Shown piece by piece: positions 5,176 to 63,951 of a stretch of 64,000 nucleotides of DNA. Every line of letters begins with the position of its first letter. Position 1 is the first letter of the stretch. Source of the DNA: Streptantibioticus parmotrematis. Its GTDB lineage: Bacteria; Actinomycetota; Actinomycetes; Streptomycetales; Streptomycetaceae. The notes below the pieces were generated by a model. The model saw only the letters and a program-made list of their open reading frames with translations, searched no databases and was not told the DNA's origin. A program made the translations under genes and the position numbers. Location: NCBI RefSeq assembly GCF_019890615.1, contig NZ_JAINVZ010000020.1:62001-126000 (forward strand), given 5' to 3'.

Positions 5176-6807
5176 TCACACGATCGGGGGCGGACCCTCC
5201 TTCGGGCGTCCGATCACTCCGGGGCGGCGCTGCCACGGGTGCGGGCCGCCGGGCGGACGGTACTCGACGCCGAGGGCGTCAAGTCGGGCCCGGTGCGCGG
5301 CCATCCGGGCGGCGAAGCCGTCGTGGTCGCGCAGCGCGGGAGCGGGCAGGTCGGACCAGACGACCTCGGCGAACGCGGCCAGGCGCGGGAACGTCTGATA
5401 GTCGACGGCCCGCACGGTGTCGAGCACCTCGGTCCACAGGTTGGCCTGGGCGCCGAGCACCCGCGACGTCAACCGGGGTCCCTCTTCGGCGAGTTGTGCG
5501 GGAACCGGTTCGAAGCGGTAGACGTCCTCCTGGGCGCGCACCCATCCGATGGGGACCGGCTCGTCGGGGCCGCCGTCCTGCCGGTGGTCGAAGTAGACGT
5601 GCTGCTCGGGGCACATCACCACGTCGTGCCCGGCGCGCGCGGCGGCGATCCCGCCCGCGTAACCGCGCCAGGAGGAGACGGCGGCGCCCGGCGCGAGGCC
5701 GCCTTCGAGGATCTCGTCCCAGCCGATCAGCCGCCGCCCGCGGTCGGCGAGCCAGCGGTCGAAGTGCCCGATGAACCAGCTCTGCAACGCGTCCTCGTCG
5801 CGCAGCCCCAGCTCCTCGATGCGCGCCTGCACGGTCTTGGAGTCCCGCCACTGCTCCTTGGGGCACTCGTCGCCGCCGATGTGCACGAACGGCGAGACGT
5901 CGGCGGGGAAGAGGTCCAGCACCTCCTCGAGCACGCCCTCGTAGAAGCGCAGGGTGGTGTCAGTGGGGGCGAGTACGTTGGAATTGACGCCCCAAGTGGT
6001 CAGCACGGGAAGGGTGGTGGTGTCGATGACGTCGGTGTTGCCCAGTTCCGGGTACGCGGCGATGGCGGCCTGCGAGTGCCCGGGGATGTCGATCTCGGGG
6101 ACCACGCGGATATGGCGCTCGGCGGCGTAGGCGACGATCTCGCGGATGTCGTCCTGCGTGTAGTAGCCGCCGTGCGGGCGGTCGTCGAAGCGGGTCGACT
6201 CGCGCAGGCCCACCTTGGTCCCGGTCCGCCACGATCCGACCTCGGTCAGCCGCGGGTGGCGCTTGATCTCGATCCGCCAGCCCTGGTCGTCGGTCAGGTG
6301 CAGGTGGAGCACGTTGAGCTTGTGCGCGGCGAGCAGGTCGAGGTAGCGCAGCACGACGTCCTTGGGCATGAAGTGCCGTGCCACGTCGAGCATGAAGCCG
6401 CGCCAGCCGAAGCGCGGCGCGTCCTCGATCGCGACGGCGGGCAGGCGTGCCTCGTGCCCGCCGACCGGCGCCCTGCGGAAGGCGCGTTCCCCGGCGAGCT
6501 GCCGCAGCGTCTGCGCGCCCCAGAAGACGCCCGCCGGGTCGCCGCCGGTGATCTCGACGCCGTCCGCACCCACCTGGAGCCGGTACGCCTCGGCGTCCAG
6601 CCCCGGATCGACCCGCAGCGTGATCCCGCCGGAGGCGTCCGCCCGGTCAGGCAGCGCGATCCCGAAGGCGGCACCGAGGACCCCGCGCAGCCACCGCGCG
6701 ACCCCCTCCGCTCCGGGTCCGGCATGCAGCGGGGTGTCGGGGCCGAGGACGAAGTCTTCACCGGAGAGCGCGGTCCGGACGACCCGGGGCGCGGGGATGA
6801 GATCCAT
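5176..6807 (-). CDS. Beta-N-acetylhexosaminidase, glycoside hydrolase family 20
   Basis: GH20 enzymes release terminal GlcNAc/GalNAc from chitin oligomers and glycans by substrate-assisted catalysis. The sequence shows an N-terminal GH20b domain (to about residue 140), then the TIM barrel with FGWRGFMLDVARHF, HLHLTDDQGW and the catalytic pair in HIGGDE (about D312-E313), and a C-terminal W-rich strand (ANLWTE). At 543 aa it is normal length. I prefer the ATG at 6807 over an in-frame GTG at 6834, because the latter lies inside the operator region and the mature fold begins just after the ATG. No signal peptide is evident, so it may act in the cytoplasm on imported chito-oligosaccharides. Two dre-like boxes just upstream predict DasR control. 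Confidence 0.9.
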   Translation of the reverse strand: MDLIPAPRVVRTALSGEDFVLGPDTPLHAGPGAEGVARWLRGVLGAAFGIALPDRADASGGITLRVDPGLDAEAYRLQVGADGVEITGGDPAGVFWGAQTLRQLAGERAFRRAPVGGHEARLPAVAIEDAPRFGWRGFMLDVARHFMPKDVVLRYLDLLAAHKLNVLHLHLTDDQGWRIEIKRHPRLTEVGSWRTGTKVGLRESTRFDDRPHGGYYTQDDIREIVAYAAERHIRVVPEIDIPGHSQAAIAAYPELGNTDVIDTTTLPVLTTWGVNSNVLAPTDTTLRFYEGVLEEVLDLFPADVSPFVHIGGDECPKEQWRDSKTVQARIEELGLRDEDALQSWFIGHFDRWLADRGRRLIGWDEILEGGLAPGAAVSSWRGYAGGIAAARAGHDVVMCPEQHVYFDHRQDGGPDEPVPIGWVRAQEDVYRFEPVPAQLAEEGPRLTSRVLGAQANLWTEVLDTVRAVDYQTFPRLAAFAEVVWSDLPAPALRDHDGFAARMAAHRARLDALGVEYRPPGGPHPWQRRPGVIGRPKEGPPPIV

Positions 6808-53406: not shown

Positions 53407-54069
53407 TCACGCCGTCAGGCGCAGCGCTTCCCTGACCGCTTCGGCGAGCGTGTCGACCACGGGGACCCCGGCCGCCTCCAGGCTGGCCCTGCTGTGCGAA
53501 CCGCCGGTGTAGAGCACCGCCAGCGCGCCCACGTGCTCGGCCGCCACCGCGTCGTCGACCGCGTCGCCTATGACCACCGTGCGCCGCGCCCGGACGCCGC
53601 CGAGCGCAGCGAGGTGGCGGGCCATGTGCTCGGCCTTGCCGGTGCCGGAGGGCCCGGTGGCGCCGTCCACCCGGACGAAGCGGCCGGTGATGCCGTGCGT
53701 GTCCACGATCGGTATCAGCCGGTCGTGCGGGGCCAGCGAGCACAGCGACTGGGTGTGCCCGGCCGACTGGTGGGCGGCGAGCAGCTCGGCGGCGCCCTCG
53801 GCGAGCCCGCAGGTGCCGGCGAGGGTCCAGTAGTGGCGGTGGAAGATCCGGTCCATCACCAGCCACTCGTCGTCCGTGGGCAGCCGCCCGAGCAGCCGTT
53901 CGTAGAACCTCGGCACCGGCACGCAGTACAGCTCGCGGTACCGATCGAGGGTGATCGGCGGCAGGCCGAGCTCGCCGAACGCGGCGTTGGTCGCCTCGAT
54001 GACGGCGTCGATGTCGTGGAACAGCGTGCCGTTCCAGTCCCACACGATGTGGGTCAGGTCCTTGGCCAT
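53407..54069 (-). CDS. HAD-superfamily hydrolase, phosphoglycolate phosphatase-like
   Basis: The 220-aa protein has the HAD core with nucleophile D11 in VWDWNGTLF, the SLAPH motif II region, a lysine (TGKAEHM) and VVIGDAVDDAVAAEHVG motif IV. The residue two after the nucleophile is Asn (N13), where most HAD phosphatases have the acid/base Asp. The helical cap follows residue 16. The promoter is the noteworthy point. A perfect RecA-independent DNA-damage promoter lies 6 nt before the ATG, so the mRNA is probably leaderless and induced by DNA damage. It follows the DUF6912 gene by 101 bp on the same strand but has its own promoter. The substrate is unknown. Confidence 0.87.
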   Translation of the reverse strand: MAKDLTHIVWDWNGTLFHDIDAVIEATNAAFGELGLPPITLDRYRELYCVPVPRFYERLLGRLPTDDEWLVMDRIFHRHYWTLAGTCGLAEGAAELLAAHQSAGHTQSLCSLAPHDRLIPIVDTHGITGRFVRVDGATGPSGTGKAEHMARHLAALGGVRARRTVVIGDAVDDAVAAEHVGALAVLYTGGSHSRASLEAAGVPVVDTLAEAVREALRLTA

Positions 54070-54075
54070 GCGACG

Positions 54076-54098
54076 ACCCTACTCGGGGCCACCGACAA
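54076..54098 (-). promoter_or_regulatory. RecA-independent DNA-damage (PafBC-type) promoter of the HAD gene
   Basis: TTGTCGGTG (54098-54090), 8 nt, then TAGGGT (54081-54076) on the minus strand match every specified base of the RecA-NDp consensus TTGTCRGTG, N8, TANNNT. The ATG follows 6 nt later. Confidence 0.85.
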
Positions 54099-59458: not shown

Positions 59459-59481
59459 TTGTCAGTGGTGGCTCCTAGGCT
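59459..59481 (+). promoter_or_regulatory. RecA-independent DNA-damage (PafBC-type) promoter of the YcaQ-like gene
   Basis: TTGTCAGTG (59459-59467), 8 nt, then TAGGCT (59476-59481) match every specified base of the RecA-NDp consensus TTGTCRGTG, N8, TANNNT. The ATG at 59489 follows 7 nt later, implying a leaderless mRNA. Confidence 0.9.
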
Positions 59482-59488
59482 GAGGGCC

Positions 59489-60673
59489 ATGACGACGACG
59501 CCGACGCTGCCGCCCCCGCGCACCGAGTTGTCCGCCGACGAGGCCCGCCGCATCGCGCTGCGCGCGCAGGGCCTGCTCGGGGCGCCGGACCGGCGGGCCG
59601 GGGTGCGCGGCGTGCTGCGTTCGCTGGGCGCGGTGCAGCTCGACACGATCTCGGTGCTGGCCCGCTCGCACGAGCTGATCCCGTACGCCCGCCTCGGCGC
59701 CGTGGGCCGCGAGGCCGTGGAGGAGGCGTACTGGAGCGGGAATCACGCTTTCGAGTACTGGTCGCACGCCGCGTGCGTGCTGCCCATCGAGGAGTGGCCG
59801 CACTTCGCGTTCCGCCGCCGCGCCCGCCGGGCCCGGGGCCACCGCTGGCACGTGATGGCGGACGCCGACCGCTCGTGCGCCGCGGTCCTGGAGCGCCTGA
59901 CCGCCGAAGGCCCGCTCACCTCCACGGAGTTGGGCGGCGCCAAGAACGGCGGACCGTGGTGGGACTGGTCGGAGACGAAGATCGCGGTCGAATGGCTGCT
60001 GGACACCGGTGACGTGGTGTGCGTCCGGCGGCGCGGCTGGAAGCGGGTCTACGACCTCGCCGAGCGTGCCGTGCCCGGCGCGCTCCTCCACGACGACCTG
60101 GACGACACCGAGTGCGTGCGGCGCCTGGTCGCGCTGGCCGGGCGTTCGCTGGGGGTGGCCACCCGCGCCGACCTCGCCGACTACCACCGGCTCACCGGCG
60201 CCCAGGTCGACGCGGTGATCGCCGACTCGGGGCTGGTCCCGGTCGAGGTGCGGGGCTGGGGCAAGCCCGCCTGGGCCGACCCGGCGGCGCTGCGGGAGGC
60301 GCCGCGCGGCCGTCACCGCACGACGTTGCTGTCCCCGTTCGACTCCCTGGTGTGGGACCGCGCCCGCACGGAGCGGGTCTTCGGCTTCACCCACCGCCTC
60401 GAGGCGTACGTGCCGAAGCCCAAGCGGATCCACGGGTACTTCGCGATGCCGCTGCTGTCGGGCGGCAGGCTGATCGGCCGCGTCGACCCGGCCCGCGAGG
60501 GCGATACGCTCGTGGCGCGGCAGTTGTCGATGGCGGGTCCCCGGGCGGTCGAGCCGATGGCCCAGGCGCTGCGCGAGGCCGCCGCGTGGGTGGGGTGCGA
60601 GGCGGTACGCGTCGAGCAGGTGGACGACGCGCGACTGAAGGAGGCCCTGATCACGGAGCTGGGAGGGTCCTGA
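59489..60673 (+). CDS. YcaQ/AlkX-type winged-helix DNA glycosylase
   Basis: HTH_42 (YcaQ) proteins excise alkylated bases and unhook interstrand crosslinks. The 394-aa protein has the catalytic QFD-type motif Q50-L51-D52 in GAVQLDTISVLARSHEL, where QxD marks the YcaQ/AlkX branch and QxQ the AlkZ self-resistance branch. Tandem winged-helix regions follow (SETKIAVEWLLDTGDVVCV, ADLADYHRLTGAQ) and then a b-barrel end (SPFDSLVWDRARTERVFGF). The ATG at 59489 is preceded by a perfect PafBC-type promoter, which independently supports a DNA repair role. The frame is open upstream to 59420 but the promoter fixes the start. No biosynthetic cluster is nearby, so general repair fits better than self-resistance. 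Confidence 0.9.
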   Translation: MTTTPTLPPPRTELSADEARRIALRAQGLLGAPDRRAGVRGVLRSLGAVQLDTISVLARSHELIPYARLGAVGREAVEEAYWSGNHAFEYWSHAACVLPIEEWPHFAFRRRARRARGHRWHVMADADRSCAAVLERLTAEGPLTSTELGGAKNGGPWWDWSETKIAVEWLLDTGDVVCVRRRGWKRVYDLAERAVPGALLHDDLDDTECVRRLVALAGRSLGVATRADLADYHRLTGAQVDAVIADSGLVPVEVRGWGKPAWADPAALREAPRGRHRTTLLSPFDSLVWDRARTERVFGFTHRLEAYVPKPKRIHGYFAMPLLSGGRLIGRVDPAREGDTLVARQLSMAGPRAVEPMAQALREAAAWVGCEAVRVEQVDDARLKEALITELGGS

Positions 60674-60824: not shown

Positions 60825-61589
60825 TCAGCGGATCTCCAGTATCTTCTCCCGCATCGCGTACACCACGGCCTCCATCCGGGAGTGCAGCTGGAGCTTCTCC
60901 AAGATGTTGCGCACGTGGTTCTTGACGGTGTTCTCGCTGATGAACAGCTCTTTCGCGATGTCGCGGTTGTTCATGCCGGTCGCGACCAGCTTGAGCACCT
61001 CCAGCTCCCGGTCGGTGAGCCGGGGGGCCGGGACGAGGCGGCGCTCGTCGGTGCGCTGGATCATCGACTTGAACTCGGTGAGCAGCTTGGACGCCATCGA
61101 CGGGCTGATCTGCGACTGGCCGTCGACGACCGCGCGGATGGCGGTCGATACCTCGTCCGTGGAGATCTCCTTGAGCAGATAGCCCGTGGCTCCGGCCTTG
61201 ATCGCCTCGTAGAGGTCGGCCTCCTCGTCGCTGATCGTCAGCATGATGATCTTCGCGCTCGGGGCCACCTCCTTGATGGACGTGCACGCCTCGATCCCGC
61301 CGCGACGTGGCATCCGCACGTCCATGAGAACGATGTCGGGCAGCAGGTCAGCGGCCTTGTCGACGGCCTCCGCGCCGTCCCCCGCCTCGCCGACGACCTG
61401 GATGTCCTCCTCCGCGGCCAACACGATCTCCAGACCGCGCCGGAAGAGCGCGTGGTCGTCGACGACCAGGACTCTGATGGGCTCGCTGCGCCGCGTGCCC
61501 GTCCCCGGGCCGTCCGGGCCCTCGTCGGTGCCGATGGCGTCGGCGGCGCCCATGGCACCGACGGCCGCCGCATCGAAGCTGTCCGGCAT
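60825..61589 (-). CDS. NarL/LuxR-family response regulator, orphan
   Basis: A 254-aa DNA-binding response regulator. After a 37-residue acidic leader the receiver domain (about 38-160) has acidic pocket D44-D45, phospho-acceptor D90 in VLMDVRMPRRGG, Thr near 118 (MLTISDEE) and Lys in GYLLKEIS (about 140). The C-terminal GerE/LuxR HTH (LTDRELEVLKLVATGMNNRDIAKEL, ENTVKNHVRNILEKL) occupies about 190-254. The ATG at 61589 has a strong GGGGAGGGG site. No histidine kinase gene lies within the window beside it, so it is an orphan. It lies between the convergent YcaQ-like gene and hpf. Confidence 0.92.
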   Translation of the reverse strand: MPDSFDAAAVGAMGAADAIGTDEGPDGPGTGTRRSEPIRVLVVDDHALFRRGLEIVLAAEEDIQVVGEAGDGAEAVDKAADLLPDIVLMDVRMPRRGGIEACTSIKEVAPSAKIIMLTISDEEADLYEAIKAGATGYLLKEISTDEVSTAIRAVVDGQSQISPSMASKLLTEFKSMIQRTDERRLVPAPRLTDRELEVLKLVATGMNNRDIAKELFISENTVKNHVRNILEKLQLHSRMEAVVYAMREKILEIR

Positions 61590-61819
61590 CGGTTCCCCTC
61601 CCCTCGAGCCGGTCCCCCACCGCATCGCACGCACGGCGACGGGCCAACGCGGCTGCGCTGCCCGGCGGTTGACTCTCATCATGATTTCATGCCCGGGCGG
61701 CGTACCGGCGATTCCGCGGCAGCCGGAGGCGGCCGGTTGACGGCCGTCGGCGGCGCACTCCACGCTCCGCGCGCCCCCTGCGCCGAGGCCCCCGCGCTCT
61801 CCCCGACTACCACGGAACG

Positions 61820-62972: not shown

Positions 62973-63863
62973 TCACGTCCACCGTCGACCGCCTCCGTCC
63001 CCCATCCTCCGCCGTACCGCCGGGTACGGCGATCCGTCGCCTGCCCAGACCCGGCCCGCGCACACCCGCACCGGCTCCGGCACTTCCCAGGACCGCGGTG
63101 GAACCGCGATCACCGCCGCCCCGCACACCGCCCCGCCGGCCTCCCGGACCGCCCGGGACGCCTCGGCCAGCGACGCACCGGTGGTCATCAGGTCGTCGAC
63201 CACGACCACCGGGCCGTGCGCCAACAACCGTTCGCCACCCGCGACGGTGCCCAGCGCACCGCTGAGGTTGGCCATCCGCCCGGCCGCCGAAAGACCCGTC
63301 TGGTCGGCGACCGGCCGCCGCTGCCGCAGCACCGCGAGCACCCGCGCGGGCACTCCCGCGCCGCGCAGCGCCCGCGCCGCCCGCAACGCGATCCGCCGCG
63401 CCGGATCGTGCCCCCGGGCCGCCACCGCCCGCCGCGACGACGGCACCGGAACCAGCAGCAGCGGTGCACCCGGCCCCGGCGGCCCCGCACTGCGCCGGAC
63501 TCCGGCCCGCACCCCGGACCCGGCGCCGACCCGCGCGTCCGCACCCCCGCTGTCACCGGCGACCAGCCCGCCCGCCGCACGCACCGCGCGCGCCAGGGCG
63601 TCCCCCAGCGGCCCGGCCAGCCGCAGGGCGCCGCGCTCCTTGTGGGCCAGCAGCACGGCGCGCACCGTGTCCTCGTACGCCCCGGCCGCGTACACCTCGG
63701 GCAGACCCGCCGGCTCGGGGTCCGGTCTGACGCGGCGCGCCGCCCCCGCACCGGTCAGCCGTCCGTCGCACCCCTCGCACAGCGCACCGCCGCCGGCCCG
63801 GCCGCACCCCGCGCAGTCGACCGGGAGCACCAGGTCCGCCAGCTCCCGCCACATCCCTTTCAT
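62973..63863 (-). CDS. comF: ComF-family phosphoribosyltransferase
   Basis: ComF/GntX proteins combine a zinc finger with a type I PRTase fold and are linked to DNA uptake in some bacteria. The 296-aa protein has the four-Cys finger CAGCGRAGGGALCEGC near the start, the linker, and the PRPP loop VVVVDDLMTTGAS (about 240). HKERGALRLAGPLGDAL is the other family block. The start is uncertain. ATG 63863 has GGAG only 2 nt upstream, while ATG 63854 would use the AAAGGG. hpf lies downstream. The gene itself is unambiguous, although an antisense frame also stays open. Confidence 0.88.
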   Translation of the reverse strand: MKGMWRELADLVLPVDCAGCGRAGGGALCEGCDGRLTGAGAARRVRPDPEPAGLPEVYAAGAYEDTVRAVLLAHKERGALRLAGPLGDALARAVRAAGGLVAGDSGGADARVGAGSGVRAGVRRSAGPPGPGAPLLLVPVPSSRRAVAARGHDPARRIALRAARALRGAGVPARVLAVLRQRRPVADQTGLSAAGRMANLSGALGTVAGGERLLAHGPVVVVDDLMTTGASLAEASRAVREAGGAVCGAAVIAVPPRSWEVPEPVRVCAGRVWAGDGSPYPAVRRRMGDGGGRRWT

Positions 63864-63951
63864 GGCTCCACTGTGCCCACTCGGGCCCCACCCCACCAGC
63901 CCTGTGGACAACGCCTGTGGACAACTCCCCGCAGCCACAAGCGCGATGGGG

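Follow-up and report, generated by a model that had tools for sequence, protein, structure and literature searches.

A putative PafBC-type promoter directly before the gene of a YcaQ-like DNA glycosylase, conserved in Streptomycetaceae

The window, by which we mean the whole 64,000-nucleotide stretch of DNA analysed here, carries a gene for a YcaQ-like (YQL) DNA glycosylase that is immediately preceded, on the same strand, by a promoter-like site, and it holds a second site of the same type on the opposite strand. The features are the following:

59459..59467, plus strand: PafBC-type -26 box TTGTCAGTG, an exact match to the RecA-NDp/PafBC consensus
59468..59475, plus strand: spacer GTGGCTCC, 8 nt, a length kept in orthologous loci
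59476..59481, plus strand: -10 element TAGGCT (TAnnnT), its T, A and final T invariant across loci
59489..59491, plus strand: ATG start and probable transcription start (predicted leaderless mRNA), 7 nt past the -10
59489..60673, plus strand: YcaQ-like (YQL) HTH_42 DNA glycosylase, 394 aa (PF06224, E = 4.8e-67)
59636..59644, plus strand: codons of the catalytic motif Q50-L51-D52, read from the translation
54076..54098, minus strand: second PafBC-type site of the window, TTGTCGGTG-N8-TAGGGT, a relaxed-pattern match

The sequence-only reading had assigned the gene product to the HTH_42/YcaQ family with a QLD catalytic motif. This assignment was borne out by a Pfam profile search, in which PF06224 (AlkZ-like) was covered over its full length (positions 1-329 of 329), and by the presence of Q50-L51-D52 in the translation. 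The closest solved chain was 9zd6_A (E = 3.5e-56), and an NCBIfam search with the glycosylase protein gave no match. PMC9040887 gives Q-aliphatic-D as the defining motif of the YQL clade, describes a near-invariant Streptomyces YQL neighbourhood (an acetyltransferase, a two-component regulator and ComF) located outside gene clusters, and reports that two other actinobacterial YQL proteins excise N7-alkylguanine and unhook crosslinks. The same neighbourhood type was found at the window gene, whose neighbours, judged from ORF translations, are an acetyltransferase (from 58814), a LuxR-type response regulator (60825-61763) and a ComF-like ORF (62973-63938). With the YQL subfamily as presented there (E. 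coli YcaQ and the T. curvata and T. fusca YQL proteins), the gene thus has in common the Q-aliphatic-D motif, PF06224 and the type of neighbourhood; it encodes a Streptomyces YQL glycosylase, with crosslink unhooking as its predicted activity. A self-resistance glycosylase of an antibiotic cluster was considered and rejected, since such an enzyme would have (Q/H)-aliphatic-Q where this one has QLD, and since the gene lies among the conserved YQL neighbours. We take SCO3007 to be a possible orthologue in S. coelicolor; the literature search found no paper on it.

At positions 59459-59481 of the plus strand the sequence reads TTGTCAGTG-GTGGCTCC-TAGGCT, and is followed by GAGGGCC and by the ATG at 59489. 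The consensus of LexA/RecA-independent damage promoters is tTGTCRgtg-8nt-TAnnnT (PMC5656591). A perfect fit to this RecA-NDp pattern had been claimed from the letters and was found at each specified position, with a spacer of 8; likewise, the 7 nt counted between TAGGCT and the ATG are exactly the GAGGGCC stretch. The strict pattern matched once in the window and the relaxed pattern three times, as compared to no match of either in 100 dinucleotide shuffles, which excludes a chance origin of the site. The second site of the window, TTGTCGGTG-N8-TAGGGT, stands upstream of the gene for a HAD-family hydrolase (about 53407-54069; Pfam, L111), 6 nt from its ATG (54069); this gene is predicted to be another leaderless damage gene. 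The third relaxed match, GTGTCAGTG-N8-TACGTT at 5957-5979 of the plus strand, lies inside a long ORF of the opposite strand, antisense to it, and has no evident target; as its 22-mer recurs identically in S. olivoreticuli (G199:C1:4172022), this match may represent conserved coding sequence.

In the 7.4-Mb source genome the strict pattern was found six times and its reversed control not once. The spacer was 8 at all six sites, even though 6-9 was allowed in the search. The genes behind them, identified by sequence, are recA, a SWIM zinc-finger protein gene, the YQL glycosylase gene, an ABC transporter gene, an ABC permease gene and rarA/mgsA; at three of the six (SWIM, ycaQ and rarA) the gene starts exactly 7 nt past the -10. 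The relaxed pattern gave 45 sites in the genome versus 0 in the control, and 23 of them are followed at 6-9 nt by the first codon-like start. At least 16 of the relaxed-site targets are DNA repair or replication genes, as judged by Pfam or direct reading: those for RecA, DnaX, a DinG-like DEAD helicase, O6-methylguanine methyltransferase, UvrB, an RNase T-type exonuclease, a UvrD-type helicase, XseA, the YQL glycosylase, an HhH-GPD glycosylase, RarA, RuvC, a PD-(D/E)XK nuclease, a RecD2-HHH protein, an exonuclease III-type enzyme and a uracil-DNA glycosylase (ung). A relaxed site is also present upstream of rpsF, whose operon usually contains ssb. The O6-methylguanine methyltransferase gene and uvrB each have a PafBC-type site 6 nt from the start; the two sites are divergent and separated by about 130 bp (G000:C8:51102-51276; L099 and L100).

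Conservation of the site before ycaQ orthologues, a check proposed in the sequence-only reading, was followed in 80 named YQL loci sharing 75-94% identity, which comprise Streptomycetaceae plus one record titled Streptosporangium and one actinomycete MAG; 79 of them were testable and one was cut by a contig end. All 79 showed the same architecture, with a spacer of 8 and the ATG 6-8 nt past the -10, and 72 scored at least 11 of the 13 specified positions, the best reversed upstream control reaching 9/13. Among the 71 non-redundant Streptomycetaceae loci, the TGTC of the box and the T, A and final T of the -10 were found in every one, and the AGTG of the box in 65 (A), 70 (G), 64 (T) and 67 (G), an invariance of single columns that is partly selected, since the site was taken as the best match of each upstream region. 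This way of picking sites affects neither the constancy of the start distance nor the low scores of the controls. The spacer was mostly weakly conserved, with the exception of the C adjoining the -10 (67/71). In these 71 loci the footprint is limited to the box, the C adjoining the -10, the three specified bases of the -10 and the start region; over the 50 bases upstream, conservation does not rise above background. A 4-nt Shine-Dalgarno core between the -10 and the start was present in only 14 of the 79 loci. In some Streptomyces (L060, L075, L082, L086, L125, L127 and L128) ycaQ is preceded by the degenerate box CTGTCAGAC and TATCGT; because of this degeneration, strong regulation of ycaQ may have been lost in them, as a possible lineage-specific weakening within the CTGTCAGAC group. 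Three of the genomes with this box retain 8-10 strict sites elsewhere.

LexA/SOS control of the glycosylase gene was considered and rejected: its best SOS box scores 6/10, which is the background level (the region upstream of recA reaches 8/10), and the scores upstream of the 80 loci were not clearly different from those of the reversed controls. That the gene has no SOS box is compatible with RecA/LexA-independent induction.

A search of the genome with PF19187 (PafC HTH) revealed one strong match and two further weak ones. The locus, read from translations, has the order pafA, FKBP-type genes, pafB, pafC, tatC. PafB matched the M. smegmatis chain of 7p5x with E = 2e-58 and PafC its partner chain with 2.7e-51 (7p5x/9fnd); in the alignment, the segment RMFERDK of the PafB HTH region is identical to that of the M. 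smegmatis chain. Work on the M. smegmatis complex has shown that the -26 motif is bound by the HTH of PafB and domain 4 of SigA is contacted by PafC, and that single-stranded DNA on the WYL domains activates PafBC (PMC11804915).

The site, the genome-wide regulon, the conserved spacing and start distance, the gene family, the catalytic motif and the PafB-PafC pair were all observed here, and they led us to propose that the site is very probably a PafBC-dependent promoter of the RecA-NDp/P1 type giving rise to a leaderless mRNA for the YcaQ-like glycosylase. DNA damage would expose single-stranded DNA, to be bound by the PafBC WYL domains; PafBC would then allow the housekeeping RNA polymerase (HrdB) to read the -26 box TTGTCAGTG instead of a -35, together with the -10 TAGGCT. 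Both the activation by single-stranded DNA and the adaptation of the sigma factor come from papers on relatives, and the binding of PafBC at 59459-59481 is our extension of them to this locus. Transcription would begin at the ATG or within one nucleotide of it. In S. lividans the distance from the -10 to the transcription start has a mean of 6.3 nt and is 5-7 nt in 88.7%, and 17% of the transcripts are leaderless (PMC8079986). The -10 lies 7 nt from the ATG, and therefore the predicted transcription start is at or beside this codon, which predicts a leaderless transcript and, with it, leaderless translation. The glycosylase, whose chemistry is likewise taken from its relatives, would then excise N7-alkylguanine lesions and unhook interstrand crosslinks, acting alongside the products of the other site-bearing repair genes. 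The crosslinks on which YcaQ-type enzymes act are those at guanine N7, whereas mitomycin C attacks guanine at N2 (PMC11323726). Because the damage switch is conserved directly before the gene, the enzyme is very probably made on demand upon damage.

Among the alternatives, the one that survives best accepts the promoter as real and attributes its activation to ClgR or another WYL-domain regulator, or to PafBC jointly with one of them. In mycobacteria, recognition of the RecA-independent motif has been reported for ClgR (Wang et al. 2011, as cited in PMC5656591), and the two weak PafC-HTH matches would leave room for a further regulator in the source genome; however, the regulator that structures of M. 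smegmatis show in contact with the -26 motif is PafBC (PMC11804915), and the RMFERDK segment of PafB is conserved here, so that we consider another activator unlikely. Still less likely is a constitutive promoter of the usual housekeeping type, with TAnnnT as its -10, in which the upstream TTGTCA would be a misread -35. TAnnnT is indeed the general Streptomyces -10, and leaderless transcripts are as frequent in S. lividans as stated above, but TTGTCA is separated from the -10 by only 11 nt, where the S. lividans norm is 15-19 nt (PMC8079986). Moreover, it is the entire nine-base box that is conserved and not a -35 hexamer, the spacing is exact even in distant families, and the motif set is dominated by repair genes. 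That the motif is a chance match or a coding artefact inside a CDS starting at GTG 59420 is hardly credible: although the longest mechanical ORF of the glycosylase gene does begin at this codon, 5' of the site, the motif and the ATG are fixed in 79 loci and the sequence upstream of them is conserved no better than background, which rules out GTG 59420 as the translation start in favour of ATG 59489, and the shuffles gave no match.

The proposed PafBC-dependent promoter shares with the PafBC (RecA-NDp, P1) promoters of M. tuberculosis and M. smegmatis the tTGTCRgtg box, the 8-nt spacer and TAnnnT; common to the mycobacterial system are also the sites at recA and many repair genes, and PafB and PafC being encoded near pafA. 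It differs from that system in its Streptomycetaceae host, in having a YQL glycosylase gene as a target and in the many sites located 6-9 nt before a start, and it is known here from sequence. In mycobacteria the lhr-nei2 crosslink-repair operon is under PafBC (PMC11323726) and would be the nearest parallel to a PafBC-type site before a YQL gene. Within Streptomyces, recA and SCO6735 of S. coelicolor have RecA-NDp promoters, and SCO6735 was reported to be UV-inducible (PMC5087735); the motif is the same, but SCO6735 is a macrodomain protein and not a crosslink glycosylase. The motif, PafBC, RecA-NDp sites in Streptomyces and the YQL enzymes were thus already known. What appears to be new is the link between the PafBC-type promoter class and a YcaQ-like glycosylase gene. 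In the open-access literature we found no paper joining PafBC to YcaQ/HTH_42; Gamulin et al. 2004, which is outside that scope, may list related genes. The accessible part of PMC9040887 describes no promoter or regulation of the YQL gene and calls the pathway of these glycosylases unknown; to this our analysis adds a conserved damage-type promoter, and with it a prediction of their regulator and of the moment at which they act.

Strict sites were present in 52 of the 61 sampled Streptomycetaceae genomes and absent from the other nine, and the control gave no match in any of the 61. The relaxed pattern occurred 21-75 times per genome, with 0-3 control matches each, in six Streptomyces genomes (S. 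olivoreticuli, S. nigrescens, S. albus, S. natalensis, S. noursei and S. chattanoogensis). According to an initial motif search reported in PMC9380542, S. venezuelae does not conserve the PafBC motif of M. smegmatis. Our motif counts contradict this for most of the Streptomycetaceae, as a general inference that does not concern the S. venezuelae genome itself. They also bear on the question raised in that paper of a RecA/LexA-independent damage response in Streptomyces, as the motif is abundant in most of the family and points at repair genes. No strict site was found in the seven sampled genomes, of 8-12 Mb, of two genera of the family, g83 (G149, G164 and G173) and g86 (G152, G166, G175 and G181), in which the motif may have shifted.

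Across the class, an AlkZ-like match was found in 115 of 148 genomes. Outside the Streptomycetaceae, TGTC-N12-TAnnnT precedes an in-frame start by 5-10 nt in 29 of 90 AlkZ-like genes; with 16 other spacings between TGTC and TAnnnT, not one of the 90 had a match. Genes with the site belong to the QLDT as well as the Q-I/V/M-DS clade, the two deep clades of the tree, and the site label requires 13 changes on this tree versus 31.7 for shuffled labels, which indicates that presence of the site is clustered, with several gains or losses. No recognisable site was detected before the AlkZ-like genes of families f4, f13, f14 and f28. Other families have few or none and the downstream half of the box is variable, and for this reason the class-wide pattern may partly reflect a diverged PafBC specificity. 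On balance we lean towards the idea that control of AlkZ-like crosslink glycosylases by PafBC through a leaderless promoter is old, or has evolved repeatedly, across Actinomycetes and in both deep Q-aliphatic-D clades. If this idea holds true, Streptomyces would possess a complete LexA-independent damage regulon that includes unhooking by a glycosylase, in parallel to the mycobacterial lhr-nei2 crosslink operon. The genomes of one further genus (g38, of family f19) each have 31-53 relaxed sites, a number similar to that in Streptomyces, which suggests that this is another lineage with a large PafBC-type regulon.
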